DNA from: Marinilabilia rubra
Lineage (GTDB): Bacteria > Bacteroidota > Bacteroidia > Bacteroidales > Marinilabiliaceae
Reading direction: 5' to 3'
Assembly (NCBI RefSeq): GCF_003121985.1
Contig: NZ_QEWP01000003.1
Span: 186,001-250,000, forward strand
DNA: 64,000 bases
Part shown: in pieces, positions 30,770 to 58,614 of the stretch
Position numbering within the stretch: position 1 is the first letter of the stretch
Layout of the letters: every line of letters starts with the position of its first letter
Notes under the pieces: model-generated
Database searches by the model: none
Told to the model about the DNA's origin: nothing
What the model saw: the letters and a program-made list of their open reading frames with translations, nothing else
Program-made: the position numbers and the translations under genes

Positions 30770-30784
30770 TTATGTATGACATAA
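30770..30784 (+). promoter_or_regulatory. Putative GntR operator, copy 1
   Basis: TTATGTATGACATAA is a perfect 6-3-6 inverted repeat (TTATGT, ATG, ACATAA) located 8 nt after the -7 box of susC and 92 bp from the start codon of the divergent GntR gene. Size and symmetry suit a GntR/FCD dimer site, and the position at the transcription start would block initiation. A 14/15 identical copy lies at 55156-55170. Confidence 0.7.
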
Positions 30785-30798
30785 TAAAAAGGAAGTCT

Positions 30799-33700
30799 AT
30801 GAAAACATTTAAATTGAGACTAAGATTTGTCTACTGTCTCTCGCTGTTACTGCTGACAGCAGGGACATTAAACGCGCAAACCAGCATTAGTGGGACAGTG
30901 CGCGACAGTGAAACCGGAGAAACCCTCCCCGGTGCAACGGTTACAGTAAAAGGAACAACTACCGGAACCATTACCGATATGGAGGGGAGTTATGAAATCT
31001 CCGCCGCGGAAGGAGAGGTACTCGTATTTTCTTTTATCGGATACCTCACCAAAGAGATTACGGTTACCGGCCAAACCAGCCTTGATGTTCAGCTGGTACC
31101 GGAAGTCAGAAAACTTGACGAAGTAGTGGTAGTGGGTTATGGCACCCAGACCAGAAGTCAGATGACCACCTCTGTTTCGAAACTGGATACCAAAGTTTTG
31201 GAAAGTGCTCCACGGTCCAATGCTGCAACGGCACTGCAGGGTACAGTTGCAGGCTTGAAAGTTACACAAAACACCGGTCAACCTGGGTCTACCCCAAGCA
31301 TTACACTTCGCGGTGGAACGAGCTTTAGTGGAGGTGGTACTCCTTTGGTTCTAATTGATGGAGTCCCCGGATCATTCTATGCGCTTAACCCGGACGACAT
31401 TGAGTCGATGGAAGTATTGAAAGATGCAGCCTCAACGGCCATTTACGGAGCACGTGCGGCCAACGGCGTTATTCTGGTGACCACTAAAAAAGGAAAAGCC
31501 GGTAAAACCAACATTACTTTTCGTTCTAAACTGACCACCAACGAACGACGTGAAGACCCTATGGAATACCTGAACGCAGCTGAGTATGTAAAGTATAACA
31601 GATTGGGGGTTAAACAGGCTCAGGATGTAATGGGGTATCCATGGCTGAACCAGTTCCTGACCGGAGCACATGCTGCAGGTACCGGAAACAACACCACAAA
31701 TTCCATCTATACAACCATGATTTTATCTGATGAGAACCGATATCTATTGGATTACGAAGGTTGGCAAACGATGGAGGACCCTGTAAATCCGGGAACCATG
31801 CTCATTTTTCAGGAAAACCAGATGAATGAATTGATCTATCAGGATAGTTATTCACAGGACTACAGTGTGTCGATAGACGGAGGTAACGACCAGGGCACTT
31901 ACTACCTGGGCCTTGGATACCTGGATGACAAAGGATTGGTAATAGGCAGTGGATTCAAGCGCTATTCAGGAAGTTTCAACGGATCCTATAAAATAACCGA
32001 CAATCTGAAGATTAGTTCCAATATCATTTATGCACATTCCAATCTGGATCGGCCTTACGACAGCGACTACAACCTATTCCAAAGGACGTCCGGTCTGGCG
32101 CCTACTTCGAGAATCTACAACAATAATCCTGATGGAAGTCTGTCTGAAGAATACCAGCCCGGAACCTATCTCGGGTTCGGAAACCCGCTCTATTACAAGG
32201 ATAAATTTATCAGAACGAACCTGGAACAACGGTTAACGGCCTCTGTTCAGGCAGACTATACATTCCTGACAAATTTTAAACTAACTCTCAGGGGAAGTCA
32301 TTTCACCATCAACAACTCCAATGAAGCTTTCAATAAAGCTTACATGAATTCAGGTCGCCTAAACACAGACCGAACAGCGTCTGCATCTCATCAAAGAACG
32401 CTCAGAAATCAATTCACCGGGATGTTGAAGTACACAAATACCTTTGGTGAAAACCATAACATGAGTGCTTTGCTTGGAACCGAATACTTTAAAGAAAATG
32501 CTTTCAGTTTCAGTGCTGCCACCCGCCTCTCCCCTACCGATTTGATATACACCATGAATGTGGGATCAGAAGCTTCGGGAACACCTTCATCCTATAAAAC
32601 GGGATATGAAATAAGCTCCGTTTTTGGACAGGTGAATTATGACTATGACTACAAATACCTGTTTGGATTTACCTTCCGGAGAGATGGCACCTCACGCCTG
32701 GGCAATAATAAATATGATTTCTTCCCGGGAGTATCCGTTGGTTGGAACATCCACAATGAAGAATTCTATAGTGATTCAAAAGTTTCGGAATATGTGAGCA
32801 AGATCAAACCCCGATTGAGCTATGGTGTAAATGGTAACATCGAAGTGCTTTCCAATTTTGGTGTCTTTGGAACTTATGCTTCAACATCGGTTTACGATAC
32901 ACAATCAGGATATGTTAACAACCAATTACCCCTTCTTGATCTGAAGTGGGAACGCTCAACAACCTTCAATGTTGGGTTGGACCTGGGATTATTCAGCGAC
33001 CGCCTGACATTGATCGGAGACTATTTCGTAAGAGATGTAAAAGACAAACTGGCCGGTTTGACCTTGCCGCTTTGGACAGGTTTCTCATCCATCACCACCA
33101 ACAACGGAACTTTGCGCAACAAAGGTCTGGAGCTTCAGGTGAACGGAGACATCATCAAAAACAATGACTGGAACTGGAATATGGGGCTTACCTATTACTC
33201 CGTGCGTAACTACGCCCATAAATTACCTGAAAATGGTGTAGAGAAAAACCGTCAGGGAGGTACAGAAATATATGACCCTGCCACAGGCGAATCTAAGTAT
33301 GTTGGTGGATTACAGGAAGGTGAAAGAGTAGGCTATGATGTGATCACTGCATATGTTTTTGACGGCGTTTACAAAACACAGGCCGACATTGATGAACATG
33401 CTGATCGAACAGTAGAGTTTGCCACCAAACCTGACACACGTTTCCTGGGAGACACCCGATGGAAAGACCTGAACGGAGATAATGTTATCAATAACCTGGA
33501 CCGGGTAGTTATTGGAAGAACCACACCCGATTTTGTCGGCGGCATTACATCTGATCTCTCTTACAAAAACTTCAATCTTTTCGTGAAAACCGACTTTGCT
33601 GTTGGGCACCACCTCATAAATGGCCGCCGTGTAAAAGGTATTTCTCAGACCCAGGGAAACCAGAACGGACCAGCTGAAATAGCTGACACCTGGAGCCCTG

Positions 33701-34038
33701 AAAATCCGGACTCCAACATTCCGATTTTCACATTGGTTGACCGGCAGAGAAACCACCTTGCAGCCGGCGGTGACCAGGGATCTATCAGCAGCAGTAGCTC
33801 ACGTATGTGGGAAAAAGGAGATTATTTTGCGCTTCGTGAAGTAACCCTTAGCTACAACCTCGACGGGCAAATCGTTAATGACTTTTTCCAAAACATCAGG
33901 ATTTATGTAACCGGTGCCAATCTCAAATACTTCAACAGTTTTTCAGGTAGTAGTCCGGAAGAAGCAGGGAATGGAATGGACATGGGACGATTCCCACTGC
34001 CTCGTACTTACACTCTGGGTATTAACGCAACTTTCTAA
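30799..34038 (+). CDS. susC: SusC/RagA TonB-dependent outer-membrane transporter (PUL 2)
   Basis: The ATG at 30799 has GGAAG just upstream and gives 1079 residues with a signal peptide ending LNAQT. An in-frame TTG at 30760 overlaps the -7 promoter box and is not used. Domains: N-terminal carboxypeptidase-D-like extension (ISGTVRDSETGETLPGATVT), TonB box region LDEVVVVGYGTQTR, plug (LQGTVAGLKV, SMEVLKDAASTAIYGARAAN), barrel ending INATF. It takes up oligosaccharide together with the SusD encoded 18 bp downstream. The genes that follow (sialidase, GH20, sialate lyase) suggest sialylated glycans as substrate. Confidence 0.96.
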   Translation: MKTFKLRLRFVYCLSLLLLTAGTLNAQTSISGTVRDSETGETLPGATVTVKGTTTGTITDMEGSYEISAAEGEVLVFSFIGYLTKEITVTGQTSLDVQLVPEVRKLDEVVVVGYGTQTRSQMTTSVSKLDTKVLESAPRSNAATALQGTVAGLKVTQNTGQPGSTPSITLRGGTSFSGGGTPLVLIDGVPGSFYALNPDDIESMEVLKDAASTAIYGARAANGVILVTTKKGKAGKTNITFRSKLTTNERREDPMEYLNAAEYVKYNRLGVKQAQDVMGYPWLNQFLTGAHAAGTGNNTTNSIYTTMILSDENRYLLDYEGWQTMEDPVNPGTMLIFQENQMNELIYQDSYSQDYSVSIDGGNDQGTYYLGLGYLDDKGLVIGSGFKRYSGSFNGSYKITDNLKISSNIIYAHSNLDRPYDSDYNLFQRTSGLAPTSRIYNNNPDGSLSEEYQPGTYLGFGNPLYYKDKFIRTNLEQRLTASVQADYTFLTNFKLTLRGSHFTINNSNEAFNKAYMNSGRLNTDRTASASHQRTLRNQFTGMLKYTNTFGENHNMSALLGTEYFKENAFSFSAATRLSPTDLIYTMNVGSEASGTPSSYKTGYEISSVFGQVNYDYDYKYLFGFTFRRDGTSRLGNNKYDFFPGVSVGWNIHNEEFYSDSKVSEYVSKIKPRLSYGVNGNIEVLSNFGVFGTYASTSVYDTQSGYVNNQLPLLDLKWERSTTFNVGLDLGLFSDRLTLIGDYFVRDVKDKLAGLTLPLWTGFSSITTNNGTLRNKGLELQVNGDIIKNNDWNWNMGLTYYSVRNYAHKLPENGVEKNRQGGTEIYDPATGESKYVGGLQEGERVGYDVITAYVFDGVYKTQADIDEHADRTVEFATKPDTRFLGDTRWKDLNGDNVINNLDRVVIGRTTPDFVGGITSDLSYKNFNLFVKTDFAVGHHLINGRRVKGISQTQGNQNGPAEIADTWSPENPDSNIPIFTLVDRQRNHLAAGGDQGSISSSSSRMWEKGDYFALREVTLSYNLDGQIVNDFFQNIRIYVTGANLKYFNSFSGSSPEEAGNGMDMGRFPLPRTYTLGINATF

Positions 34039-34056
34039 CAAAAAAACCAATTAGAA

Positions 34057-35553
34057 ATGAAGAAATTAAAATATATAGCAATATTCATTGCAGCCATGGT
34101 CATCAGTTCATGCGAGCTGGACATGCAGCCTGAAAGCGACCTCACCTACAATGGTTTCTGGGATTCAGAAGAAGCAGCAAGAGCTGCCCACGTAGGAATC
34201 TATTCAAGTTACCGGAACTATGCCTACACGTTTTGGCAAATGGGTGAACTCCGTTCAGATATATGGGGTGGAAATACGATAGAATCGCCATTTGGAATTG
34301 ACCTCATTCAAAATAACATCAGCTCAACAATGGTGTACTTTGGTAATTGGGCCAATTTCTATGGACTTTTGCATTATATTAATGATTTTATCAAAAATGC
34401 GCCCAATGTTCCGTTTCAATATGAGGAAGACAAAAACCACATGCTTGGTCAGGTATATGGGCTACGGGCCCAGGTGTACTACACCATGTTAAAAGCATGG
34501 GGAGAAGTACCTGTTTCAACAGAGCCTCTTTTGGAAGTTAATCTGGAAGAGCTCAAAAAACCACGTGCACCCAAAGCAGAAGTCATGGTTCAGATCAAAA
34601 GTGACATTGAGAAATCACTCGAATACTTTGGAGATGACAACAGCATGTGGCAAGCTAAAAATGTTTATTGGTCAAAGGCTGCCACATTAGCTCTAAAAGG
34701 AGATGTTTATATCTGGTCAGGAAAAGTATTGGGAGGCGGAAACGCTGATTTTACTGAAGCAAAAAACGCTCTTCAACAAATTTCCGGCTTTAACCTGGTC
34801 GATTATCAGGCACTCTGGGGGCAAGACAACGAATTTAACAATGAATTCATTTTTGCCTTCGATTACCAGCAGGATCAGGCAGGAAACTTTTACAATTCCT
34901 TTACGGGACGTGCTGTTGATTTTGCCGGACTATACACAGAAACCGGAGCCCCGGCAGGAGAAATTGTGGTTAACGGAGCCAGCCGTTTTGGTCCTTCCGA
35001 CAAGACCCTCCTTTTGCTAAACGATCAGCAGGATCAAAGGAATAACACCTTTGTTCGATTATATGACGATGGAGAAAACCATATCCCATTTGAGCCGGAA
35101 GAGCAAAGTTACAAAGGATCGCTACTCAACAAGTTTTTAGGAATTATTGGTGATGATGGCTCCAGAAAGAACTATAACAACATACCAATGTACCGTTACG
35201 CTGATGTACTTCTTTTACTCGCCGAAGCTAAAAACAACCTGGGAGAAGATCCCTCTGACGAGATCAACCAGGTAAGGGCAAGAGCTTATGGTGAGAACTA
35301 TGATGCCAATGTTCACGGATATATAAATGGCACCCAAAGCCAAAACAGAATCGCCATTCTGGATGAACGATACAAAGAGTTTATCGGTGAAGGCAAAAGA
35401 TGGTGGGATCTTGTGAGGGCTGGTGAAGGCATTGTATTTGATGAAATCGCCTTCCTCGATGCTTCCGAAGCTTATAAAATTTACTATTCCATTTCCGAAA
35501 GTATGCTTGCGAATGATCCGGAGCTGGAGCAAACAGAAGGCTATGGCCAATAA
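34057..35553 (+). CDS. susD: SusD/RagB-family glycan-binding lipoprotein (PUL 2)
   Basis: A 498-residue lipoprotein (lipobox ISSC, then ELDMQPESDLTYNGFW). TPR-like helices around YGLRAQVYYTMLKAWGEVPV and the C-terminal RagB signature ILDERYKEFIGEGKRWWDLV are clear, and YADVLLLLAEAKN is also typical. It is the surface lid of the SusC encoded 18 bp upstream. A strong 16-bp hairpin follows 27 bp after the stop codon, before the sialidase gene. Confidence 0.95.
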   Translation: MKKLKYIAIFIAAMVISSCELDMQPESDLTYNGFWDSEEAARAAHVGIYSSYRNYAYTFWQMGELRSDIWGGNTIESPFGIDLIQNNISSTMVYFGNWANFYGLLHYINDFIKNAPNVPFQYEEDKNHMLGQVYGLRAQVYYTMLKAWGEVPVSTEPLLEVNLEELKKPRAPKAEVMVQIKSDIEKSLEYFGDDNSMWQAKNVYWSKAATLALKGDVYIWSGKVLGGGNADFTEAKNALQQISGFNLVDYQALWGQDNEFNNEFIFAFDYQQDQAGNFYNSFTGRAVDFAGLYTETGAPAGEIVVNGASRFGPSDKTLLLLNDQQDQRNNTFVRLYDDGENHIPFEPEEQSYKGSLLNKFLGIIGDDGSRKNYNNIPMYRYADVLLLLAEAKNNLGEDPSDEINQVRARAYGENYDANVHGYINGTQSQNRIAILDERYKEFIGEGKRWWDLVRAGEGIVFDEIAFLDASEAYKIYYSISESMLANDPELEQTEGYGQ

Positions 35554-35579
35554 CACCTGAATTTTCATTAAATTTAACC

Positions 35580-35617
35580 ATACAGGTCGGCTCTCAAACA
35601 TGAGAGCTGACCTGTAT
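35580..35617 (+). other. Strong hairpin between susD and the sialidase gene
   Basis: ATACAGGTCGGCTCTC (35580-35595) pairs with GAGAGCTGACCTGTAT (35602-35617) through 16 pairs including one G-U, with a 6-nt loop. No T run follows, so it is not a canonical terminator. It may protect the susCD mRNA 3' end or lower expression of the enzymes downstream, as inferred for other sus-like operons with abundant SusCD. Confidence 0.6.
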
Positions 35618-35655
35618 TACTCATTAATAAAATACTTTCACCAAAACGAAATGCC

Positions 35656-37275
35656 ATGTTTAAAAATTTGATAGCTGCAAGCCTTTTCCTTTTGAGCGGA
35701 TGCAATTCCAAAGATGCAACTTACGAATCAGTACCTAAAGGTGTTAACAACATACAGGTACAAACCCGGAATATCCCTTTGGTGGAAGAAAAAGCTACCA
35801 ATAACCTGGTCAACATTACCATTATTCCTGATGCAGGAACCACAAAAGCGATCTCTACAGTTGAATTTCACTTTGATCAGGATCTTTCAGAAATCCTGGA
35901 AATGGCTTCCATTTCAAGAAGCACCCCAAATACTGACCAACCAGTCGAAATAGCCACGACTGAAACATTCAGTCCGGAAAAACTCAGAATTTCAATTCCT
36001 AACCTTTCCATCAAGGACACAACTACTCTTCACCTAAACCTCAAAGTATCCAATGCAATAGATCTTTCTTCAACCATTACTCTTGAGGAAATAAAAGTCA
36101 CTTTCGATAACAAAGAGAATTACCAGGAAAAAATAAATGCCACCTTCCGCCCGGCCATTGAGGTACGTGCGGCCGGACAAGACAATTGCGACACTTACCG
36201 CATTCCGGGAATGGTAACCACCAACGAAGGTACTCTGATTGCCGTTTACGACAATCGCTATACCCGAAGCAAAGACCTTCAGGAACACATCGATGTGGGC
36301 ATGAGCCGCAGCACGGATGGCGGCGAAACCTGGGAGCCTATGCAAGTAATAATGGATCGGGGCGAATGGGGCGGAAAACCCGAATACCTCAATGGCGTTG
36401 GCGACCCGGCAGTGTTGTACGATCCCAACACCCATACCATTTGGGTGGCAGCACTGTGGATGCATGGATTTGACCGCGATCAAATGGGCTGGTGGGTGTC
36501 GCAACCAGGCATGGAACCATCTCAAACGGGACAATTTTTATTGGTGAAAAGCACCGATGACGGCCAAACCTGGTCGGAGCCTATCAACATTACCCGGCAA
36601 ATTAAAAATCCCGACTGGCAGTTATTGCTTCAGGGCCCCGGGCGAGGCATCACCATGAGTGATGGCACACTGGTATTCCCCGCTCAGTTTAAAGCTGATA
36701 TTGGCAAAAAAGCCATGGACGGGGGACCGTTCACCAGCCATTCAACGATCATTTTCAGTAAAGATGAAGGAAAAACCTGGCAAATAGGCACCGGTGCTAA
36801 ACCCAATACTACTGAGGCTCAGGTGGTGGAGTTAAGTGATGGCTCCCTGATGCTGAACATGCGGGACGACCGCAACCGTAAAATCAAAGATGAAACCAAC
36901 GGACGTGCTGTAGCCGTTACCAATGACCTTGGGCAAACATGGACCCAACACCCAACCTCCAACTCTGCATTGATAGAACCTAATTGCATGGCCAGCATTA
37001 TTGGTGACGATATTCCAGTCGACGGACACCAACAAAAAGTCCTGTTCTTTTCCAACCCCGCCAACAAATACAAAAGAGTGGATATGACCATAAAGGCAAG
37101 TCTGGATGAAGGAAAGAGCTGGCCTAAAGAAAACCAGGTTTTACTGAATGAGCAACAAGGCTTCGGCTATTCATGTATGACCATGATTGATGACCAACAT
37201 GTAGGCATCTTGTATGAGGGAGTCAAAAACCTTTATTTTCAAAAGATTCCTGTGGATGAGATTCTAAATCCATAA
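35656..37275 (+). CDS. nanH: GH33 exo-sialidase lipoprotein
   Basis: A 539-residue lipoprotein (LLSGC, Cys16). An N-terminal beta-sandwich of about 160 residues precedes the six-bladed propeller. CDTYRIPGM holds the RIP arginine (about residue 183) and there are five Asp boxes of the SxDxGxTW type (STDGGETW, STDDGQTW, SKDEGKTW, TNDLGQTW, SLDEGKSW). EGVKNLYF near the end holds the conserved Glu-Gly strand. It removes terminal sialic acid from glycans; linkage preference cannot be seen. It lies directly after SusCD and before GH20, NanA and the mutarotase-symporter, forming a complete sialic-acid route. Confidence 0.95.
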   Translation: MFKNLIAASLFLLSGCNSKDATYESVPKGVNNIQVQTRNIPLVEEKATNNLVNITIIPDAGTTKAISTVEFHFDQDLSEILEMASISRSTPNTDQPVEIATTETFSPEKLRISIPNLSIKDTTTLHLNLKVSNAIDLSSTITLEEIKVTFDNKENYQEKINATFRPAIEVRAAGQDNCDTYRIPGMVTTNEGTLIAVYDNRYTRSKDLQEHIDVGMSRSTDGGETWEPMQVIMDRGEWGGKPEYLNGVGDPAVLYDPNTHTIWVAALWMHGFDRDQMGWWVSQPGMEPSQTGQFLLVKSTDDGQTWSEPINITRQIKNPDWQLLLQGPGRGITMSDGTLVFPAQFKADIGKKAMDGGPFTSHSTIIFSKDEGKTWQIGTGAKPNTTEAQVVELSDGSLMLNMRDDRNRKIKDETNGRAVAVTNDLGQTWTQHPTSNSALIEPNCMASIIGDDIPVDGHQQKVLFFSNPANKYKRVDMTIKASLDEGKSWPKENQVLLNEQQGFGYSCMTMIDDQHVGILYEGVKNLYFQKIPVDEILNP

Positions 37276-37344
37276 TCTCAACGTTTAAGCTTTTCATAAA
37301 AACGATTGAATTTCGCAATCATGCACGTAAGACTTCAGGCTCCA

Positions 37345-39381
37345 ATGAAAAAGACATCTCAAATAAAGTGGGGGTTAATTTTACTCCTGATACTGGGATT
37401 TACCATCACGACGACAGCACAAAAAGAAAACGTCCCACATCTTCTGCCCATGCCACAACAAGTTGAATGGCATTCGGGAAATTGTCCGGCATCTTTCCGC
37501 TCGGTTTCAGGAGATGATGAAACGGGCCTGGTGGTGGAATGGTTGGATGCCATTGGACTGAAACAGAAAGAGGCTTCTCCTGTCACCATCCTTATTAACA
37601 AGGTTGGTGACATTAGAGAGGCCACCGTAAACAAGAATGAAGCCTACCGGCTCAACATCCAGGATAATTCAATAACCATTGATGCTGTAACAAATCAAGG
37701 CATCTACCGCGCCATTCAAACGCTGCGTCAACTTATCGTCTCTGATCATCAGCAACCTGTAATAAAAGCATCTACTATAACCGACTGGCCTGCGTTCCGC
37801 ATCAGAGGTTTTATGCACGACACCGGCAGAGGTTTTATCCCTTTTGATGAGCTGAAAAAACAAATTGAACTTTTGGCCCGCTTCAAGATCAATGTATTTC
37901 ACTGGCACCTGACCGAAGATATTGGCTGGCGTCTGGAAAGCAAGGTATTTCCTCAACTTACCGACAGCTCTAACTTTGAAAGATTACCCGGAAAATACTA
38001 CACCATTGACCAGGCCCGGGAACTGGTCGATTTCTGTAAAAAACACCACGTTCTGTTAATTCCGGAAATAGACATGCCCGGCCATAGTGCTGCCTTTACA
38101 CGTGCCATTGGGCATGACATGCAGTCTGAAAAAGGGATGGAAAAGCTCAAGGTGCTGATGGATGAAATCTGCGAGGTATTTGCCGAATTACCATACATTC
38201 ACATTGGTACCGACGAGGTACGCTTCACCAATCCGGACTTTGTTCCTGAAATGGTCAGCTACATCCGAGACAAAGGGAAAAAAGTAATCAGTTGGAATCC
38301 CGGATGGCATTACCAATCTGACGAAATTGACATGATTCAGATGTGGAGTTCACGGGGAGAGCTACTGCCCGGTACCCCTGCCATCGATTCCCGACTACAT
38401 TACATCAACCATTTTGACTCTTTTGCCGACATAGTCGCCCTTTACCACAGCAATGTCGCCGGGGTAAAAGAAGGAACCCCTGATGTGGCCGGAGCAATTA
38501 TTGCGCTTTGGAACGACAGACATGTGGAATCAACAGAAGACATTCTTTCTCAAAACGGGTTTTATCCTTCCATGCTCACACTTGCAGAATCAACATGGAA
38601 AGGCGGAAGGGAAAAATACTTTTACGAACGTGGCACCTTGATAAAGCCTGATGAGAAAACTGATTATCCGTCGTTTACCAACTTTGAAACCCGGATGCTT
38701 CATTTTAAGCAAGAGGCATTTGCAGCCGAGCCTTTCGCTTACGTCAAACAATCCAATGTAAAATGGCGGATAACCGAGCCATTCCCCAACGGAGGCGATC
38801 TTACAAAAACTTTCCCGCCAGAGAAGAAAATCAAAAAAAAATACCGTTGGAAAAAAGACATTTACGAAACCTCCCTTGCAACAGGTGCAGGCATTTACCT
38901 GAGACATGTCTGGGGAACACTGGTCCCTTCTTTTTATGAAAATCCGCAACCCAATCATACCGCCTATGCCTATACCTGGATTTACTCACCGGAACAACAG
39001 GAAGCCGGGTTACATTTGCGGTTTCAGAACTACAGCCGCTCAGAGAAAGACATTCCCCCACCACAGGGCAAATGGGATTTCAACGAGAGCAAAGCCTGGC
39101 TGAATGGCAACGAAATATCTCCACCCAACTGGGAGAACCAACACCGGGAAAGAACGTCAGAAATCTCCCTGCGCAACGAGAACTGGGAGGGTAACGCTCC
39201 CATCCCGGTCACTCTGCAAAAAGGCTGGAATAAATTATTGCTAAAATTGCCTGTAGGCGAATTTACCTCCGATGAGGTAAGACTGGTAAAGTGGATGTTC
39301 AATGCTGTACTTGTTACCCCTGACGGAGGTGAAGCATTGGAGGGCATCATTTATTCTCCGGACAAAAAACTGAAACGTTGA
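37345..39381 (+). CDS. GH20 beta-N-acetylhexosaminidase (PUL 2)
   Basis: I choose the ATG at 37345 (signal MKKTSQIKWGLILLLILGFT then ITTTAQ); in-frame TTG (37306) and ATG (37321) starts lie upstream. The 678-residue enzyme has a GH20b domain, then FRIRGFMHDTGRGFIP, INVFHWHLTEDIGWRLESK and the catalytic pair in HIGTDEVRF (Asp290-Glu291). The usual GG before DE is GT here. The barrel is followed by about 200 residues with LHLRFQNYSRSEKD and NKLLLKLPVGEF, a beta-sandwich of unknown role. It would release HexNAc after desialylation. It follows the sialidase gene with a 69-bp gap. Confidence 0.9.
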   Translation: MKKTSQIKWGLILLLILGFTITTTAQKENVPHLLPMPQQVEWHSGNCPASFRSVSGDDETGLVVEWLDAIGLKQKEASPVTILINKVGDIREATVNKNEAYRLNIQDNSITIDAVTNQGIYRAIQTLRQLIVSDHQQPVIKASTITDWPAFRIRGFMHDTGRGFIPFDELKKQIELLARFKINVFHWHLTEDIGWRLESKVFPQLTDSSNFERLPGKYYTIDQARELVDFCKKHHVLLIPEIDMPGHSAAFTRAIGHDMQSEKGMEKLKVLMDEICEVFAELPYIHIGTDEVRFTNPDFVPEMVSYIRDKGKKVISWNPGWHYQSDEIDMIQMWSSRGELLPGTPAIDSRLHYINHFDSFADIVALYHSNVAGVKEGTPDVAGAIIALWNDRHVESTEDILSQNGFYPSMLTLAESTWKGGREKYFYERGTLIKPDEKTDYPSFTNFETRMLHFKQEAFAAEPFAYVKQSNVKWRITEPFPNGGDLTKTFPPEKKIKKKYRWKKDIYETSLATGAGIYLRHVWGTLVPSFYENPQPNHTAYAYTWIYSPEQQEAGLHLRFQNYSRSEKDIPPPQGKWDFNESKAWLNGNEISPPNWENQHRERTSEISLRNENWEGNAPIPVTLQKGWNKLLLKLPVGEFTSDEVRLVKWMFNAVLVTPDGGEALEGIIYSPDKKLKR

Positions 39382-39525
39382 GGCATAAACGCATCCCTTT
39401 TCAAAAGGCAATATTGTAAATGAGAACGGAATACCCGTATCCACCTTTAAACTCGTAATCCAATGTAAAGACAACATTAACCAGAAGAATTAAAATATTT
39501 TAGAAACTGATATAACAGAACCGAT

Positions 39526-40470
39526 ATGAATCCAAAGAAATTTGAAGGCCTGGTGGCAGCACCTTTTACACCCATGCACCCTGACGGTGAATTGAATCTT
39601 GAATTAATTGAAGACTACTACACCTTACTCAAAAACAACCAAATTTCCGGAGCTTTCATCAACGGGAGCACTGGCGAGGGCGTTTCAACAACCATGGCCG
39701 AAAAAAAGGCCGTTACCAAAGCCTGGGCAGAACAGGCTGCAAAAAGTCCGGGTGTTCGCATCATCAATCTGGTGGGTGGTACCTGTCTCAAAGATTGTAT
39801 TGAGTTGGCCCAGTTCTCACAGGAGCAAAAAGTGGATGCCATTGCCGTTCTGGCACCTTTCTATTTTAAGCCGCCATCGGTCATACAATTGGCTGAATTT
39901 ATTGCCGGTATAGCCAAAGAGGTTCCGGAAATGCCTGTCTACTTCTACCATATCCCTGTTCTTACAGGCGTTAACTTTCCAATGAAAGAACTCCTGACAG
40001 AGATGGATGAGAAAGTCCCGAACTTTGCAGGCATCAAATACACACATGTGGATTTCATGGACTTCTTAAGCTGCCTGAATCACCGCAACGGCCATTACGA
40101 TTTGCTGTGGGGCCGTGATGAAAACTTCCTGGCAGCTTTGTCTCTCGGCGCCAAAGGAGGCGTTGGAAGCACCTACAATTATGCCGCACCACTTTATCAT
40201 GCTCTTATCGGCAAGTTTCAGGAGGGGAATCTTCAAAAGGCCGGAGAACTTCAACAGAAAGCCATCCATATGATTGAGCTGCTGGGCAAATACGGAGGTA
40301 TTGCCACAGGCAAGGCTTATATGAAATACATTGGATTGAATTGCGGAGAATTCAGACCCCCGGTTGCCAATATGAGTGACGCCGATTTCCGGAAATTCAC
40401 CCTAGAAGTAAAATCGCTGCAAATGGAAGAACTCTTTTCTAAAAGCAGCCCATTAGCAACCTCTAAATAG
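39526..40470 (+). CDS. nanA: N-acetylneuraminate lyase
   Basis: A 314-residue cytosolic aldolase of the DapA/NanA class I family that splits Neu5Ac to ManNAc and pyruvate. FINGSTGEG is the carboxylate-binding loop, YFYHIPVLTG carries the catalytic Tyr (about residue 140), and FAGIKYTH carries the Schiff-base Lys (about 171). The HIP tripeptide and the sialidase, mutarotase and epimerase neighbours favour sialate lyase over dihydrodipicolinate synthase. GRDENFLAALSLGAKGGVGS is also typical of NanA. Confidence 0.94.
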   Translation: MNPKKFEGLVAAPFTPMHPDGELNLELIEDYYTLLKNNQISGAFINGSTGEGVSTTMAEKKAVTKAWAEQAAKSPGVRIINLVGGTCLKDCIELAQFSQEQKVDAIAVLAPFYFKPPSVIQLAEFIAGIAKEVPEMPVYFYHIPVLTGVNFPMKELLTEMDEKVPNFAGIKYTHVDFMDFLSCLNHRNGHYDLLWGRDENFLAALSLGAKGGVGSTYNYAAPLYHALIGKFQEGNLQKAGELQQKAIHMIELLGKYGGIATGKAYMKYIGLNCGEFRPPVANMSDADFRKFTLEVKSLQMEELFSKSSPLATSK

Positions 40471-41033
40471 AAGTTACTAAAAAGTGCTTATTGAATACAT
40501 CAATGAGCAACGGCAAAAAGTATAAGAATATTATATAATCTAACCTAACAGCCTTGAAACCAAAAAATTTTAATGTTTTGTCTAAAAGAATGATTCCAAA
40601 AGGCTACAAATATTAGTATTCAAATGGTGCGCTGGCCAGTCCGTTTTCCGGGCCGGCGGCTTGCGAAAAGTCAAAATGGGGGACTTTTAAGGCCTTGCGC
40701 AAGGGCCGGAATTTTTGACTTTTGCGGGGTGATAGGTTTAAACGGACTAGACTTTTTTCGTTTTGGGGCAATGCCAAAAAGAACATTGAAGAAAAAGAGG
40801 CTATTGACCTTTACAACAGATCGTTAGTCTCGATGCTTCGGGATAGATATCAGATTTAAGATAAATCTTATAATAATGAAAACCTGCACATTAACACAAA
40901 ATCCTTTTAAAACACAAACAACTGAATCACTGAATATTGCAAAAACTTTAAGGACTATTGACCTTTACAGAAGGCCCTAAATATTATCTTGAATATCTAG
41001 TCCCGAAATAGCGTTACACAAAAAGCTCAAATT
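40471..41033 (+). other. Repeat-rich gap between nanA and the mutarotase-symporter
   Basis: A 563-bp region in an otherwise tightly packed operon. It contains a concentric palindrome (40638-40748), a smaller TTTTGG/CCAAAA hairpin (40761-40779) and a 15-bp direct repeat CTATTGACCTTTACA at 40801 and 40955. No -33/-7 promoter was recognised before the 41034 start. An apparent 67-codon frame here lies over the palindrome and is not called. Confidence 0.5.
40638..40748. repeat. Concentric triple palindrome, REP/MITE-like
   Basis: Three nested inverted pairs share nearly one centre: AGTCCGTTT (40638-40646) with AAACGGACT (40740-40748); AAAAGTCAAAA (40666-40676) with TTTTGACTTTT (40713-40723); and the 12-bp perfect palindrome CCTTGCGCAAGG (40693-40704). 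The 111-bp stretch is richer in G+C than its flanks. It looks like a non-coding mobile or structural repeat. Confidence 0.6.
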
Positions 41034-43667
41034 ATGACCATAAAAAAAATATCAATAATTCTCCTGATCCTCCTGTCCGCTCTCCTGCCGGTTAATTCAC
41101 AAAATGTGAACATTACCAGGCAAGAGAACATCGGTGCTCTGAATCTTAAGAATCATACACCTCTGGAAGAAGGCTTATCCGGATATTTCGGCGGCATTCA
41201 CAACAACCGGCTCATCATTGCCGGGGGTAGTAATTTTGCCAATGGAAAGCCCTGGGAAAACGGAGAAAAGCAGATCTACAACCACATAATTACCGGTACT
41301 GTTTCTGAGAATTCGGTCGACTGGCAGATAAGCCCGACAAAGCTACCGGCTAAGTTGACCGATGGCGCCTCTGTCACTACTCCTGAAGGCGTTGTTTGTT
41401 CGGGCGGTACCGGACCGGAAGGAATTTCTGATAAAGCATTCCTGCTGAATTTCTCTCAGAATGAGATCACCATCCAAAATCTGCCATCGTTGCCTTTTCC
41501 GGTTAAAGGCCATGATATGGCATTAATTGGCAACACGGTGTACCTCACAGGAGGCGAAGCTCCCCATGGTCCTTCACGGAATACACTTTCACTGAACCTC
41601 ACCAACAAATCAGAAGGCTGGCTACAATTGGCAGACATGCCGGAAGCTATTACAGGAATGGTTTTGGAGGCACAAAGCAACGGCAAAGAAACAGCGTTAT
41701 TTGCCATTGGGGGGAGATTAAGAATGCCTGAAGATTCGGTCACTTCTTTCAAGAACTCAGTATTGGTCTACTCTCCCACTCACAATACGTGGACTGAAAA
41801 AGGGAAAATCCGTCCCAAAGGATTTGAACACCCTCTAAATCTTGCCGTGGCTGCAGGAGCACCCGCCGGAGCCTCGCACATCATTGTAGTGGGAGGCGAT
41901 CCCGGCACTCAGTACAACAAAATAGAAGAAGCCATCAACAAAATGGCTCAAAACCCTGATGCTAAAATTCAAAGAGACAGTCTTTGGATCAACCATCCGG
42001 GTTTCAACAGCCACATTCTGGTTTACAATACCATTACCGACAAATGGTTTGCCACTGATCAATGGGAAGGTCCGGCACCAGTCATGGCCAAAATGATTCC
42101 CTGGAACAACCGCTACATCATACCCATGGGTGAGGTAAGTCCCGGCATCCGCACCGCGGAAATCAAGTCGCTGGAAATCGCTTCCGATCCGGTGTTTGGT
42201 TGGATCAACTATCTGGTTTTAGGTCTCTATTTTGCAGGCATGCTTTACCTGGGATTCTATTTCGTAAAGAAAGACGGGGATGTGGATGACTACTTCAAAG
42301 CAGGAGGCCGGATTCCCTGGTGGGCTGCAGGCATAAGTATTTTTGCCACAACGCTGAGTGCCATCACATTTATTTCCATTCCGGCCAAAGCCTATGCTAC
42401 CGACTGGCACATGCTGGTATTTCAGTTTTGCATTATTCTGATTGCTCCGTTTGTCATCCGTTATTTTCTGCCATTTTTCAGGCGTTTCAATTTGTCAACG
42501 GCCTATCAGTATCTGGAACTGCGCTTCAACAGCACATTGAAATGGCTGGCCTCTGCCCTTTTCATTCTGTTCATGGTGACAAGAATTGCGGTAGTGCTTT
42601 ATCTTCCCTCACTGGCCCTCAATGCTGTCACTGGATTTGATATCTACCTGTCCATCATTTTGATGGGGGTTGTAACAATCATCTACTGCACTTCAGGCGG
42701 TATTGAAGCCGTTGTATGGGGAGATGTTATTCAGGGTATAATTCTGATGGGAGGAGCAGTTGTGGCTTTCATATTTATGATCACCGGCATAGACGGAGGC
42801 ATCTCGGGTTTTACCGAAATTGTCATCAGTCATGAAAAAATGCACATCTTCGATTTCAGTCTGGACATCTCAAAGCCTGTCTTTTGGGTTGTATTGATTG
42901 GCGGCCTGGCCAACACTCTCATTCTTTATACCAGTGACCAATCCGTTGTCCAACGCTACATGACCACCAAAGATGAGAAATCCACAGGCAGAAGTATCTG
43001 GCTCAACGGGATCATCAGCATCCCTGTTTCTATTACCTTTTTTCTTTTGGGAACAGGACTTTTTGCCTTCTATTACTCCAATCCGGAGAAACTGGCTGCT
43101 ACGAATCCCAATATTGACTCGGTATTTCCACAATTCATTGTTGGAGAGTTGCCAGCTGGTATGGCAGGCTTGCTGATCTCAGCGATCTTTGCTGCAGCGA
43201 TGTCTACCCTTTCCTCCAATATCAACTCTGTGGCGTCGGTATTTACATCCGACTTTTACATGTCTATTGCTAAAAAAGCCACCCAGAAGAAGAATATGAT
43301 GGTAGCCAGAGTTTCCAGCATTGTGATCGGAATTCTGGGGATAGGCATGGCCCTGGTACTGGCCACCTGGAGCATAGAGTCATTGTGGGATCAGTTTAAT
43401 ACCTTTCTGGGCTTGCTCACAAGCGGAATTGGCGCCCTGTTCCTGATGGGTATTTTTTCCAAACGAATATCACCCCGGGCAGCACTTGGTGGTTTAATAG
43501 GAGGCTTGGTCACAACGTTATTGGTAAAACAAATGACCGATGTGTCATTCCTTCTCTATGGAGCCATTGGACTCTTGGCAAGTCTGGCCATTGCATTTTT
43601 GTTGAGCTTTATATTCCCAAATAAAAAAGACATTAACCGGCTGACGTATCATACACTGATAAAATAG
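41034..43667 (+). CDS. Sialic-acid mutarotase (cyclically permuted Kelch) fused to sodium:solute symporter
   Basis: An 877-residue two-part protein. After a signal sequence (ends PVNSQ) residues 30-380 form a Kelch propeller (GGIHNNRLIIAGGSNFANGK; DMALIGNTVYLTGGEAPHGP; ALFAIGGRLRMPED) of the NanM-like, cyclically permuted mutarotase type. From about residue 388 a sodium:solute symporter begins (NYLVLGLYFAGMLYLGFYFV, DDYFKAGGRIPWWAAGISIF, then ATTLSAITF, and SGGIEAVVWGDVIQGII) with about 13 membrane helices. The propeller would be periplasmic and convert released alpha-Neu5Ac to the beta anomer at the transporter mouth. Context between nanA and the epimerase supports Neu5Ac as substrate. Both parts are full length and in frame, with no sign of frameshift. 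Confidence 0.92.
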   Translation: MTIKKISIILLILLSALLPVNSQNVNITRQENIGALNLKNHTPLEEGLSGYFGGIHNNRLIIAGGSNFANGKPWENGEKQIYNHIITGTVSENSVDWQISPTKLPAKLTDGASVTTPEGVVCSGGTGPEGISDKAFLLNFSQNEITIQNLPSLPFPVKGHDMALIGNTVYLTGGEAPHGPSRNTLSLNLTNKSEGWLQLADMPEAITGMVLEAQSNGKETALFAIGGRLRMPEDSVTSFKNSVLVYSPTHNTWTEKGKIRPKGFEHPLNLAVAAGAPAGASHIIVVGGDPGTQYNKIEEAINKMAQNPDAKIQRDSLWINHPGFNSHILVYNTITDKWFATDQWEGPAPVMAKMIPWNNRYIIPMGEVSPGIRTAEIKSLEIASDPVFGWINYLVLGLYFAGMLYLGFYFVKKDGDVDDYFKAGGRIPWWAAGISIFATTLSAITFISIPAKAYATDWHMLVFQFCIILIAPFVIRYFLPFFRRFNLSTAYQYLELRFNSTLKWLASALFILFMVTRIAVVLYLPSLALNAVTGFDIYLSIILMGVVTIIYCTSGGIEAVVWGDVIQGIILMGGAVVAFIFMITGIDGGISGFTEIVISHEKMHIFDFSLDISKPVFWVVLIGGLANTLILYTSDQSVVQRYMTTKDEKSTGRSIWLNGIISIPVSITFFLLGTGLFAFYYSNPEKLAATNPNIDSVFPQFIVGELPAGMAGLLISAIFAAAMSTLSSNINSVASVFTSDFYMSIAKKATQKKNMMVARVSSIVIGILGIGMALVLATWSIESLWDQFNTFLGLLTSGIGALFLMGIFSKRISPRAALGGLIGGLVTTLLVKQMTDVSFLLYGAIGLLASLAIAFLLSFIFPNKKDINRLTYHTLIK

Positions 43668-43724
43668 GATCAATAAACGTGACAAATAAACCACATAAGG
43701 TACAGAAGATTTTAATCATCGCTA

Positions 43725-43743
43725 GTCCCGCATTCATCGGGAC
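43725..43743. repeat. Small perfect hairpin GTCCCG/CGGGAC
   Basis: GTCCCG (43725-43730) pairs with CGGGAC (43738-43743) over a 7-nt loop, 57 bp after the symporter stop. No T run follows. It may be part of the same intergenic repeat cluster as the element at 43798-43883. Confidence 0.35.
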
Positions 43744-43797
43744 GAAACTTATCAGGGCACTTCGAATAAATTGGAAAAGATAATCCCCTGGTTATTT

Positions 43798-43883
43798 GCC
43801 CTTTCAGGGCGAAACTGACCCCATAGTGATTCCTTCCCCCCAAGGCGTTGCCATTGGGCTAGTCTCAAGTGCCCTTACAGGGC
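43798..43883. repeat. Three-hairpin intergenic repeat (GCCCTTTCAGGGC type)
   Basis: Two near-identical palindromes, GCCCTTTCAGGGC (43798-43810) and GCCCTTACAGGGC (43871-43883), flank CCCAAGGCGTTGCCATTGGGC (43839-43859), which also folds on itself. From memory the same arrangement (a GCCCTTTCAGGGC-like end, a CCCAGGGCGTTGCCCTGGGC-like middle, and a second end) is dispersed in many Bacteroidota genomes. It lies 60 bp before the epimerase gene. Confidence 0.65.
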
Positions 43884-43943
43884 GGATTCTTCTGATTTAT
43901 GAAAATAATAAAAGAAATCAGTTACAACCAAAACCGTTAAAAA

Positions 43944-45104
43944 ATGGATTTTAAACAATTAAGCAAACAATATAAAAACGAGTTGTTAGAGAATGTCGTT
44001 CCCTTTTGGTTAAGCCAATCTCAGGATCATGAATTTGGGGGCTATTTCACCTGTCTCGACCGGGAAGGGAAAGTCTATGACACCGACAAATTCATCTGGC
44101 TTCAGGCACGGGAAGTATGGCTTTTTTCAATGCTTTACAACAAAGTGGAGCAGAAAAAAGAGTGGCTTGAGTGTGCCCGTCAGGGAGGAGAATTCCTAAA
44201 AGAATACGGACACGACGGAAATTACAACTGGTATTTCAGCTTTACCCGCGAAGGTCAACCACTTATTCAGCCCTACAACATCTTTTCGTACACTTTTGCT
44301 GCCATGGCCTTTGCCCAACTGGGTCTGGCCACCGGTAATGATGAGTATTCGGCCATTGCCAAACACACCTACGACCGTATAATTGAGAAACAGGACAATC
44401 CCAAAGGTCGATACAACAAGGCAGTTCCTGGAACACGAGAGCTCAAAAACTTTGCACTGCCCATGATCATGTGCAACCTCAACCTTGAGATGGAGCATAT
44501 TCTGGGTCATGAATATGTGGAGCAATCGGGCACCAAACTCATCAATGAGGTAATGAATACTTTTTACAGGCCTGAACTGGGGCTTATAGTAGAAAATGTC
44601 AATGCAGATGGCAGCTTCTCAGACACCTTTGACGGACGGCTGCTCAATCCGGGACATGCCATAGAGGCCATGTGGTTTATCATGGATCTGGCTGAAAGAA
44701 TGAACAAAAAAGACATTATTCAGAAGGCTCATCAAATCACGCTTCAAACTCTCGAGCAAGGGTGGGATAAGGAACATGGCGGTATCTTCTACTTTATGGA
44801 TGCAAAAAACCACCCTCCCCAGCAGTTGGAATGGGACCAAAAACTCTGGTGGGTGCATCTGGAAACGCTCATCTCACTGCTGAAGAGTTACCGTCTGACA
44901 GGTTCACAGGAAAGTCTGGATTGGTTTGAGAAAGTCCACCAATACACCTGGACGCATTTTAAAGATGCCCAATTCCCGGAGTGGTTTGGCTACCTCAACC
45001 GTCAGGGAGAAGTTTCCCTGAACCTGAAAGGAGGAAAATGGAAAGGATGCTTTCATGTGCCAAGGGGGTTATATCAATGTTGGAAGGAGTTGGAAAAGTT
45101 TTAG
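43944..45104 (+). CDS. nanE: AGE-family N-acylglucosamine 2-epimerase
   Basis: A 386-residue cytosolic alpha/alpha-barrel protein of the renin-binding-protein type. FGGYFTCLDREGKVYDTDKF, WLQAREVWLFSML, LLNPGHAIEAMWF and LWWVHLE contain the conserved Arg and His residues of the active site. It converts ManNAc, the product of NanA, to GlcNAc. In Bacteroidota this AGE-type enzyme replaces the enteric ManNAc-6-phosphate route. It closes PUL 2, with a rho-independent terminator 35 bp downstream. Confidence 0.92.
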   Translation: MDFKQLSKQYKNELLENVVPFWLSQSQDHEFGGYFTCLDREGKVYDTDKFIWLQAREVWLFSMLYNKVEQKKEWLECARQGGEFLKEYGHDGNYNWYFSFTREGQPLIQPYNIFSYTFAAMAFAQLGLATGNDEYSAIAKHTYDRIIEKQDNPKGRYNKAVPGTRELKNFALPMIMCNLNLEMEHILGHEYVEQSGTKLINEVMNTFYRPELGLIVENVNADGSFSDTFDGRLLNPGHAIEAMWFIMDLAERMNKKDIIQKAHQITLQTLEQGWDKEHGGIFYFMDAKNHPPQQLEWDQKLWWVHLETLISLLKSYRLTGSQESLDWFEKVHQYTWTHFKDAQFPEWFGYLNRQGEVSLNLKGGKWKGCFHVPRGLYQCWKELEKF

Positions 45105-45138
45105 AAATATAAAAACCGCACTATAGGTTTACCTTTGC

Positions 45139-45459: not shown

Positions 45460-45527
45460 GTAGTGAGGGTGCCACGACTCTGTCACGAATCAGGTACGAA
45501 CCAGGTTTGGATAATTTAGAGTCAAAG

Positions 45528-49230: not shown

Positions 49231-49306
49231 GGAAGGCAAACACATAAAGACACAAAAGATTGTTAACCGGAAACCCTCAATAATTAAAGAAAGCCTTTCC
49301 CCATAA

Positions 49307-49544
49307 TTAGAGCCTGCTGAAAAACGCAAATAATATTGAATACTAATTCATTACAGCAATAAAAAATCATTCAGATGCAAGGCTTTTTGACGCAACATAC
49401 AAAAAACCTTGCACTTAAGACAGAAAAATTTGCTAGTCAAAACGACAAAATTTACTTCACCGACAAAATCTCGAAGTATTCCAATACATCTTCGATTTGT
49501 CGGCTTGTAAATTATGCCCTTTTGACTTTTTCAGCGGGCCCTAA
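49307..49544. mobile_element. MITE-like element with about 20-bp terminal inverted repeats
   Basis: The left end TTAGAGCCTGCTGAAAAACG (49307-49326) and the right end (49525-49544; GCGGGCCCTAA at the edge) are near-perfect inverted copies. Inside are two further hairpins: GCAAGGCTTTTTG with CAAAAAACCTTGC (49377-49412) and CGACAAAATCTCGAAG with CTTCGATTTGTCG (49461-49502). There is no coding capacity. It fills most of the 368-bp gap between the sulfatase and the BNR-4 gene; the remainder shows nothing recognisable. A clear target-site duplication could not be defined. Confidence 0.65.
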
Positions 49545-49598
49545 GTAAAAACTCAAACACAAAGCAAGAATAATTCGTAGTCATATAAATCATCCCCA

Positions 49599-50891: not shown

Positions 50892-50901
50892 ATCATCCGC
50901 T

Positions 50902-52407: not shown

Positions 52408-52461
52408 ATTAATCAGTTAAAAAATCAGCAAAAATCAAATCATTTCAAAAGTTTATCAGTC

Positions 52462-53691
52462 ATGAAATTAATCAGTAAAACATTTGCTCTTGCCTTATTT
52501 ACAGGCTTATTAAGTTGCCATCAGGCACCACAGCAAGAACCAATGGAACAGGTCATCAAAAGGTCTATGAAGGTTGCCCAACAGCAATCCCGCGCAATGG
52601 CTGAATCACTGCTTGAAAGAGATCAACATTTACCTCGTACAATAAACAGGGAAACAGGGGAACTCATAACATCCGATTCCCGTTGGTGGACCAGTGGTTT
52701 TTTCCCCGGAACGCTTTGGTACGTCTATGAATATACCAACAATGATTCCATCAAAGAACTTGCTGAAGTATACACTCAACGCGTTGAACGTGAAAAGTTC
52801 ACCACCAACAACCACGATGTTGGCTTTATGCTTTATTGCAGCTTTGGAAATGGATTGAGATTAACCAACTATGACCAATATCCGGAAGTCCTGATCACAG
52901 GCAGTAAATCCCTTTCCACCAGATTCGACGAGAATGTTGGTTTAATCCGCTCCTGGGATTTCAACAAAGAACAATGGCAGTACCCGGTAATCATTGATAA
53001 TATGATGAATCTGGAACTGCTGATGTGGACCTTCAAACATACCGGGGATTCGACTTTTTACAATATTGCTGTTTCTCACGCCGACAAAACACTAAAAAAC
53101 CATTTCAGAAACGATTTCAGCAGCTATCATGTAGTTTCTTATGATACCCTTACAGGCCACCCCCATATTAAAATGACCCACCAGGGCGCCAGTGACTCCT
53201 CGCTATGGGCCAGAGGCCAGGCATGGGGCCTCTATGGTTTCACCATGATGTACCGGGAGACAGGGAAAGAACGCTATTTAGAGCAGGCGCAGAACATCGC
53301 CGATCTGTTAATCAACCACCCCAACCTGCCTGAGGATAAAATTCCTTACTGGGACTTTTCTGCTCCCAACATCCCCGATGAGCCAAGGGATGCTTCTGCA
53401 GCAGCAGTAATGGCCTCTTCACTCATTGAATTAAGTCAGTTCTCCAATAAACCTGCCGCAACCCAATATCTGGATGTAGCAGAAAAGCAGTTACGCACAC
53501 TTGCGTCACCCAAATATTTGGCAGAACCCGGCACCAATGGAAATTTTATTCTAAAACACAGCGTTGGTTCAAAACCTCACAATTCAGAAGTCGATGTACC
53601 TCTCACCTATGCAGATTACTATTTTCTGGAAGCCTTGCTGAGGTTCAGGGAGTTGCTCCAGATGGGCAATGCACAGACAAAACAGAAGTAA
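52462..53691 (+). CDS. GH88 unsaturated glucuronyl hydrolase
   Basis: A 409-residue lipoprotein (LLSC) with an alpha/alpha-barrel. The two catalytic-type aspartates are visible: Asp119 in TTNNHDVGFM and Asp179 in IIDNMMNLELLMW. SDSRWWTSGFFPGTLWYVYE and ASDSSLWARGQAWGLYGF complete the family pattern. GH88 hydrolyses 4,5-unsaturated uronic acid from oligosaccharides made by polysaccharide lyases acting on glycosaminoglycan-like chains. Its presence implies that a lyase acts upstream. Length fits the family. The PHP gene starts 34 bp downstream. Confidence 0.94.
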   Translation: MKLISKTFALALFTGLLSCHQAPQQEPMEQVIKRSMKVAQQQSRAMAESLLERDQHLPRTINRETGELITSDSRWWTSGFFPGTLWYVYEYTNNDSIKELAEVYTQRVEREKFTTNNHDVGFMLYCSFGNGLRLTNYDQYPEVLITGSKSLSTRFDENVGLIRSWDFNKEQWQYPVIIDNMMNLELLMWTFKHTGDSTFYNIAVSHADKTLKNHFRNDFSSYHVVSYDTLTGHPHIKMTHQGASDSSLWARGQAWGLYGFTMMYRETGKERYLEQAQNIADLLINHPNLPEDKIPYWDFSAPNIPDEPRDASAAAVMASSLIELSQFSNKPAATQYLDVAEKQLRTLASPKYLAEPGTNGNFILKHSVGSKPHNSEVDVPLTYADYYFLEALLRFRELLQMGNAQTKQK

Positions 53692-53725
53692 ATATCAGTA
53701 TCATCTCAATAAAAACTATTTTCTC

Positions 53726-54811: not shown

Positions 54812-54885
54812 GGCTTGGTAAAGAACAACAATAAACATTAAGGCTAAATCAAATATGCATTGTTTTAGCCAGAAACTTCAAAAAA

Positions 54886-54924
54886 TGGCAACAGTTGTTT
54901 GCTTGAACCAAACAACTGTTGCCA
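54886..54924. other. Perfect 16-bp hairpin
   Basis: TGGCAACAGTTGTTTG (54886-54901) is exactly complementary to CAAACAACTGTTGCCA (54909-54924), with a 7-nt loop CTTGAAC. It lacks a T tract, so it is not a typical terminator; a factor-dependent terminator, mRNA-protecting element or REP is possible. Confidence 0.6.
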
Positions 54925-55119
54925 GCCCATCAACCCAAAAACTCAAGATCCATCATTCAATATATTCTATGACATTTCCATAAAAATTTCAGACACCTCT
55001 TCAAAAAAAATTTAAAGGTTAAAACTACCTTTGACCACAACTTTTACTATTTTTGTGTTTAAGTGAAATTATTTTCTTAAATTTTTGTTATTTCCTAATT
55101 CCTGTTTTGGGATCAACTA

Positions 55120-55150
55120 TTGGCATATTGGAAGAATTTTCGTTTATTTG
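55120..55150 (+). promoter_or_regulatory. Possible promoter of the GH2-sulfatase-fucosidase operon
   Basis: TTG at 55120-55122 and TTTATTTG at 55143-55150 (5/6 match to TAnnTTTG) are separated by 20 nt, and the operator-like repeat follows 6 nt later. This mirrors the susC promoter, where the repeat follows the -7 box by 8 nt. The match is weaker than at susC. Confidence 0.45.
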
Positions 55151-55155
55151 GCGTC

Positions 55156-55170
55156 TTATGTATGACATAT
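55156..55170 (+). promoter_or_regulatory. Putative GntR operator, copy 2
   Basis: TTATGTATGACATAT matches the susC-proximal inverted repeat (30770-30784) at 14 of 15 positions; with the preceding C the two share CTTATGTATGACATA exactly. It lies 101 bp upstream of the GH2 start, right after a -7-like box. Confidence 0.65.
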
Positions 55171-55247: not shown

Positions 55248-58439
<3,192 letters not shown>

Positions 58440-58448
58440 CAAATTGCT

Positions 58449-58592: not shown

Positions 58593-58614
58593 AAAGCATC
58601 GTAAAAAAGCTAAA

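Follow-up and report, generated by a model that had tools for sequence, protein, structure and literature searches.

The stretch of Marinilabilia rubra DNA analysed here (hereafter the window) comprises 64,000 nt of contig NZ_QEWP01000003.1 and contains a gene for a GntR/FCD-type regulator that diverges from the first gene, susC, of a sialic-acid (nan) operon. A 15-bp palindrome, TTATGTATGACATAA, lies in the gap between these genes and a near-copy lies about 24 kb away, upstream of a second operon for glycan-degrading enzymes (Table 1). Taken together, the sites, their conservation alongside the regulator, their promoter positions and the gene content make a well-supported case for a Bacteroidota-specific, NanR-like FCD repressor with a predicted regulon of two operons and probable autoregulation. 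GH in the table and text denotes a glycoside hydrolase family and SSF a sodium:solute symporter.

Table 1. Predicted regulatory sites and genes of the window, with position weight matrix (PWM) scores for the operators
Feature	Position	Strand	Description or basis
Operator 1, TTATGTATGACATAA	30770..30784	no strand	perfect inverted repeat, arms TTATGT/ACATAA, 3-nt spacer; located where nan operon transcription is expected to start; PWM 22.5
Operator 2, TTATGTATGACATAT	55156..55170	no strand	14/15 match to operator 1; PWM 20.1
Weaker operator, TTATGTAATACTTAA	30685..30699	no strand	6 nt upstream of gntR start codon; PWM 19.0
-7 box of nan operon promoter, TACTTTTG	30755..30762	+	TTTG, -33-like, at 30730-30733; positional peak across relatives
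-7-like box of operon 2, TTTATTTG	55143..55150	+	one mismatch to TAnnTTTG
GntR/FCD regulator, NanR-like, 234 aa	29974..30678	-	Pfam GntR 7.5e-17, FCD 1.5e-16
Hybrid two-component regulator	25940..29899	-	Pfam; 74 nt downstream of gntR, same strand
Operon 1 (nan)	30799..45104	+	susC, susD, sialidase (BNR), GH20, NanA-like lyase, NanM-SSF transporter fusion, GlcNAc 2-epimerase; Pfam, presumed single transcript
Operon 2	55272..64000 (window end)	+	GH2 beta-galactosidase, two sulfatases, GH29 fucosidase; Pfam

A preliminary description of this DNA had reported the palindrome and a copy matching at 14 of 15 bases; both positions and the match were confirmed in the sequence, while the stretch identical between the two sites, described as 15 nt, was found to be 16 nt long (TCTTATGTATGACATA). 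The third site, at 30685-30699, was missing from that description. The PWM was trained on one gntR-nan site per family orthologue (n=15), including the site at 30770 but excluding those at 55156 and 30685. Sites scoring at least 19 numbered three in the window (30685, 30770 and 55156) as compared to none in 9.6 Mb of third-order Markov simulation. Searches of the complete M. rubra assembly (G000; 5.38 Mb, 59 contigs) for TTATGTATGACATAA with at most one mismatch returned only 30770 and 55156, and a degenerate consensus derived from relatives, WTATGTMNKACATAW, matched only these same two sites. Matches with two mismatches numbered 23 versus 21 for the control and, as a group, represent noise; looser matching, whether by allowing two mismatches or by leaving the N3 spacer free across the genome, yielded counts close to those of controls and was excluded from the evidence.

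The preliminary description had staked its proposal on conservation of the motif upstream of orthologous operons, and such conservation was observed in three sets of genomes. Homologues of the regulator (E <= 1e-20) were present in 17 of 71 genomes of the same family, with close homologues (at least 57% identity) in 15. A site with at least 10/12 arm matches was located upstream of gntR for all 15 close orthologues, and no site was found near the genes of four remote homologues (26-38% identity). In all 14 of these family genomes other than that of the window, the fetched stretch encoded, divergently from gntR, one or more of sialidase, NanA, NanM-SSF and epimerase, and the site lay in between. 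A wider, named collection consisted of the best 80 of 580 relatives, of which 44 were counted as Bacteroidota (including L163, titled 'uncultured bacterium') and 36 were not. In 39 of the 44 Bacteroidota loci, the 400 nt preceding the aligned gntR start contained a site scoring at least 16; this count is not fully independent, as L149 probably represents the contig of G033, a matrix training genome. The reversed-matrix control reached a maximum of 10.9 on these 44 loci, and none of the 36 non-Bacteroidota homologues had a site of at least 16 (maximum 3.6). In an even sample of the phylum, homologues (E <= 1e-55) occurred in 15 of 395 genomes, M. rubra included; outside the latter, 10 of 17 homologues had a site of at least 16 (control maximum 12.9), these being 8 of the 11 whose fetched stretch included nan-type neighbours and 2 of the remaining 6. 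The pairing of regulator and predicted operator is widespread but sporadic. The spacer varied between sites (ATG, AGG, ATT, AAT, CAT, CCT) with constant GT-N3-AC arms, indicating selection on a GT-N3-AC site. By sequence, this site has the GT-N(2-3)-AC form of FadR/FCD palindromic operators; the N3 spacing is described as typical of the FadR subfamily in passages of PMC4494728.

The nan genes themselves were also surveyed. A NanM-SSF match (E <= 1e-220) was found in 15 of the 71 family genomes; a close GntR homologue is present in 13 of these 15. The nan cluster of G018, which lacks the GntR gene, had no site scoring at least 14 over 27.8 kb from the far side of the cluster to the contig end (best score 10.9). 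Another cluster without GntR, in G029, also had no site (best score 9.2), but is a weak control as just 476 nt of contig precede the first gene and the promoter may lie off the contig. In the window, the NanM-type sialic-acid epimerase and the symporter are fused in one 877-aa protein (41034-43667); this fusion was near full-length in 14 of the 71 family genomes, whereas G022 has two separate open reading frames (ORFs).

Both operators lie close to predicted promoter elements. The assertion that each begins 6-8 nt after a -7-like box holds for operator 1 (7 nt) and is slightly off for operator 2 (5 nt). Box positions were counted only for the 39 named Bacteroidota loci with a site of at least 16. 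A TAnnTTTG-like box (at least 5/6 matches) ended 0 or 2 nt upstream of the operator in 26 of these loci and 0-8 nt upstream in 31; in a control band at a distance of 10-18 nt, such a box was present in 5 of the 39. An operator at, or directly after, the -7 box covers the expected start site and hence occupies the position of a repressor site.

The only domains of the regulator to pass curated Pfam cut-offs were an N-terminal GntR helix-turn-helix and a C-terminal FCD domain. Of the 50 PDB rows listed for a structural model (mean predicted local distance difference test score 77; predicted template-modelling score 0.62), the one with the highest TM-score was Escherichia coli NanR bound to sialic acid (6on4_A; 0.63/0.67). 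Within the same 50 rows, 6az6 was first by E-value, and both 6az6 and 9jpj were better by sequence profile. Residues Arg109, His157, His201 and His223 correspond to the carboxylate- and zinc-binding residues Arg128, His176, His222 and His244 that passages of PMC8012715 give for E. coli NanR. Of the Asp and three His residues forming the metal site of the FadR/FCD subfamily, the three His were invariant and the Asp (Asp172 in NanR) was replaced by an invariant Glu in 37/37 Bacteroidota rows, as compared to Asp in NanR and in 11/11 other FCD rows. These 37 rows formed a clade with 100/100 support that excluded E. coli NanR, although the tree gave long-branch warnings; its rows drew on 36 of the 80 named loci, with L176 dropped due to an in-frame stop in the matched stretch. 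With this topology and an identity of 25%, orthology to E. coli NanR was not supported. As the recurrent partner of the regulator is the nan operon, the choice of ligand narrows to sialic acid, which is the likely effector on the basis of the neighbouring genes.

The weaker site at the gntR start codon is probably an autoregulation site. Counterparts at nearly equal distance were found in both same-genus genomes with gntR (L065:3803, score 13.8; L066:16149, score 18.1), and 12 of the 44 named loci had a further site of at least 10 located 10-35 nt upstream of the aligned gntR start, a pattern that fits autoregulation. DNA looping between paired sites in the gntR-nan gap was considered and rejected: spacing was 83-86 nt within the genus and at least 123-142 nt in the two-site named loci, a variability that makes independent control of each gene likelier. 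The hybrid two-component gene is possibly co-transcribed with gntR, and the repressor may thereby set the level of this adjacent sensor too. Gene order was the same in both same-genus relatives with gntR, yet their hybrid proteins were only 44-45% identical to that of the window. Beyond the hybrid sensor gene, these two relatives (L111, position 10128; L112, position 9758) carry a weak operator-like site (score 14.9) centred 30 nt upstream of a gene for a 1162-aa SusC-like protein, with the Pfam assignment made on the L111 copy only.

Extension of the regulon to operon 2 was examined through its first gene. Counterparts of the GH2 gene at 55272 with 68-69% identity were present in G036 and G037 at 17 and 42 kb from their gntR genes. 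Both are preceded by operators (L103:7417 and L105:5676) that have a different spacer and begin 3 nt after a box, TATTTTTG, that is identical in the two relatives. Operator 2 is thus present in 3/3 same-genus genomes with gntR, the window included, which, with conservation of the motif beside gntR, supports the two-operon regulon put forward in the preliminary description. In two further genomes of the genus, G038 and G039 (89% and 94% complete), neither the regulator nor a close GH2 gene was found. Other GH2 genes have a site in G022, and G034 and G001 contain GH2 genes with weaker sites; this distribution suggests that GH2 genes were recruited repeatedly, as opposed to one operon being inherited. 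Past the window end, genes on the same strand as operon 2 encode a sulfatase, GH27, a GDSL esterase, GH2, a sulfatase, GH109 and GH2 (Pfam) and may belong to the same transcript. The gene content of the operons would fit sulfated, fucosylated and sialylated mucin-type glycans. Within operon 2, a weak operator-like sequence, TTATTTAAAACATAA, occurs at 61839-61853 (score 13.5), 5 nt upstream of the start codon of the GH29 fucosidase. In G037, a further site, TTTTGTCGTACATAA (L104 258-272; score 16.5), lies 76 nt upstream of a susC/susD pair situated between the nan operon and operon 2.

Sites elsewhere in the genomes were assessed with a strict motif. Among 22 sites in the 15 family genomes, 15 were at gntR/nan and the other seven were located before GH2 genes (four; G000, G036, G037 and G022), GH29 and GH95 fucosidase genes (one; G001, in which this gap is shared with a divergent radical SAM/SPASM gene), about 300 nt upstream of susC/susD (one; G045) and inside an ORF (one; G022). 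In the named set, for which the genomes of 22 of the 44 Bacteroidota loci were searched, there were 36 sites as compared to 11 for the reversed control. Fifteen of these 36 were at gntR, and 16 of the other 21 precede genes for sialidase (2), NanA (3), NanM-SSF (1), SusC (4), GH20 (2, one being a GDSL-GH20 fusion), sulfatase (1), GH2 (1), GH29-GH20 (1) and an M60 peptidase (1). Over all 37 genomes, 22 of 28 further sites precede GH2, GH29, GH20, sulfatase, M60 peptidase, susC or nan genes. The sites at the G022 GH2 gene and in L285 overlap the first codons of a mechanically called ORF, whose true start is probably later. The reversed motif gave 30 control sites in 23 genomes, 18 of which had their loci inspected; 14 of these 18 were inside ORFs, and two of the four intergenic control sites had an ORF at most 350 nt downstream (a Band_7 protein and an ORF without a Pfam match).

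On the best explanation of these observations, the palindrome very probably serves as operator for the GntR/FCD protein (29974-30678), which would act as a repressor of operons 1 and 2 with sialic acid as its likely signal. A dimer of this protein would bind TTATGTnnnACATAA at the transcription start, directly after the -7 box, and so block RNA polymerase at both operons. Operon 1 would serve in the release, uptake and breakdown of sialic acid, and operon 2 would supply a beta-galactosidase, sulfatases, a fucosidase and further exoglycosidases. Binding to the weaker site at its own start codon would limit synthesis of the repressor and, possibly, of the hybrid sensor. Entry of Neu5Ac or a close product into the cell, and its binding to the FCD metal site, would then release the repressor and open both operons together.

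Several findings weigh against this interpretation. A site of at least 16 was lacking in 5 of the 44 Bacteroidota loci and 7 of the 17 phylum-sample homologues, three of the seven adjoining nan-type genes, such that some homologues seem to use other sites. The family total for the strict motif (22) hardly differed from the reversed control (19 in the same 15 genomes), so support in that set comes from the location of the sites and not their number, and 6 of the 28 further strict sites had no clear glycan gene (C190 of G022, inside an ORF, L279, L280, L289, L292 and L288, the last with a GH16-lectin gene about 310 nt away that was not scored as a match). Less similar GH2 genes (at most 50% identity) in genus g7, some of them on nan contigs, had no site; membership of operon 2 is therefore lineage-specific, and its inclusion in a family-wide regulon was rejected. 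These GH2 genes, together with the single mismatch in operator 2, could favour a chance match at 55156 with control of operon 1 only. Such a coincidence was given the lowest probability of any alternative, in view of the simulation and the presence of a site before the orthologous GH2 gene in 2/2 other same-genus genomes with gntR, where the spacer differs and the -7 box is complete.

The identity of the ligand and of the DNA-binding protein was similarly weighed. The Arg and His ligands are common to all 11 non-Bacteroidota FCD rows compared and are not Neu5Ac-specific, and the other Neu5Ac contacts of NanR (Asn165, Arg203, His214 and Asn215) are not kept; the assignment of sialic acid hence depends mainly on gene content. 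A different ligand for the same regulator, either ManNAc or GlcNAc (or their phosphates) or a sugar acid such as unsaturated glucuronate, is conceivable though rather doubtful: FCD proteins bind varied acids according to passages of PMC4494728, the window contains a GH88-like gene (52462-53691) and the epimerase acts downstream of NanA, but there is no site of at least 14 before this GH88-like gene, the partners found beside orthologues were sialidase, NanA, NanM and epimerase (uronate genes not being searched for there) and the invariant Arg would favour a carboxylate over ManNAc. Of the 'sialic-acid- or uronate-responsive' repressor envisaged in the preliminary description, the sialic-acid part was retained whilst the uronate part was not supported. 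Activation by the GntR/FCD protein, in line with an E. coli record labelling NanR a dual regulator, is improbable as the operator adjoins the -7 box or lies after it. Ownership of the palindrome by another nan-conserved factor, such as a Crp-like protein or the hybrid two-component system encoded next to gntR, appears still more improbable. A hybrid gene was found next to gntR in no more than 3 of 15 family genomes, which belong to a single genus, whereas the site is present in 15/15, which led to its rejection as owner of the motif, and the G018 nan cluster lacks both GntR and the site.

Transcriptional repressors of sialic-acid use have reportedly been described in Bifidobacterium breve (a GntR-type nan repressor) and in Corynebacterium glutamicum (NanR). 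As with E. coli NanR in passages of PMC8012715, the predicted system has an FCD-type GntR repressor of a multi-operon sialoregulon and an operator downstream of the polymerase site; the effector/zinc-site Arg and three His are conserved, and gntR diverges from or adjoins nan genes. It differs from NanR in sequence, clade and the Glu at the metal site, in having the palindrome TTATGTnnnACATAA and not the (GGTATA)3 direct repeats described in those passages, and in a predicted regulon that extends to fucosidase, galactosidase and sulfatase operons. The NanR proteins of Bacteroides (BT0433, PMC3878776; B. fragilis nanR, PMC3969230) serve the same pathway in the same phylum, but BT0433 is a ROK protein in PMC3878776 and the window regulator has no ROK domain above the Pfam cut-off. 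The operators resemble those of the FadR subfamily in excerpts of PMC4494728 in their GT-N3-AC spacing, A/T-rich flanks and double sites in divergent regions, and differ in their arms (ATGT/ACAT here and TKGT/ACMA there). That study lists no FadR-subfamily factors from Bacteroidetes, and PMC2693436 discusses Bacteroidetes NanA without the word GntR. A search by title or abstract of open-licence PMC literature, a scope outside which lie subscription papers and RegPrecise, listed no paper describing this regulator or motif. The kind of system is familiar, whilst the regulator lineage, operator and scope of the regulon appear to be undescribed in the literature searched.

The predicted operator and regulon offer a testable model of sialic-acid control for many non-gut Bacteroidota, as compared to the ROK-type NanR described for Bacteroides. 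They suggest that an FCD regulator with a palindromic operator and with Glu in place of the metal-site Asp is used for sialic acid, and how a single terminal sugar may act as the gate to entire loci for glycan degradation beside hybrid two-component sensors. Occurrence of the motif both beside the same kind of regulator and before other glycan-stripping genes suggests that the bacteria possessing it use sialic acid as a cue for dismantling animal-type glycans. There is about an even chance that this widespread but sporadic FCD lineage uses sialic acid as the master signal for taking apart sialylated mucin-type glycoproteins, having been wired in different genera to different sets of genes beyond nan (GH2, GH29, GH95, GH20, sulfatase, the GDSL-GH20 fusion, the M60 mucinase-like peptidase and susCD), including in environmental genomes such as those of Pedobacter planticolens, Polaribacter sp. 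MSW5 and Flavihumibacter sp. ZG627. In Polaribacter sp. MSW5 (L292 4366-4380), a perfect operator and nan-type promoter precede a run of epimerase, aminotransferase, nucleotidyltransferase and phosphotransferase genes with no obvious glycan-degradation set. In Sphingobacteriia bacterium RIFOXYC2 (L286 4613-4627), a perfect operator and nan-type promoter lie directly before a gene for an M60 (enhancin/mucinase-like) peptidase.

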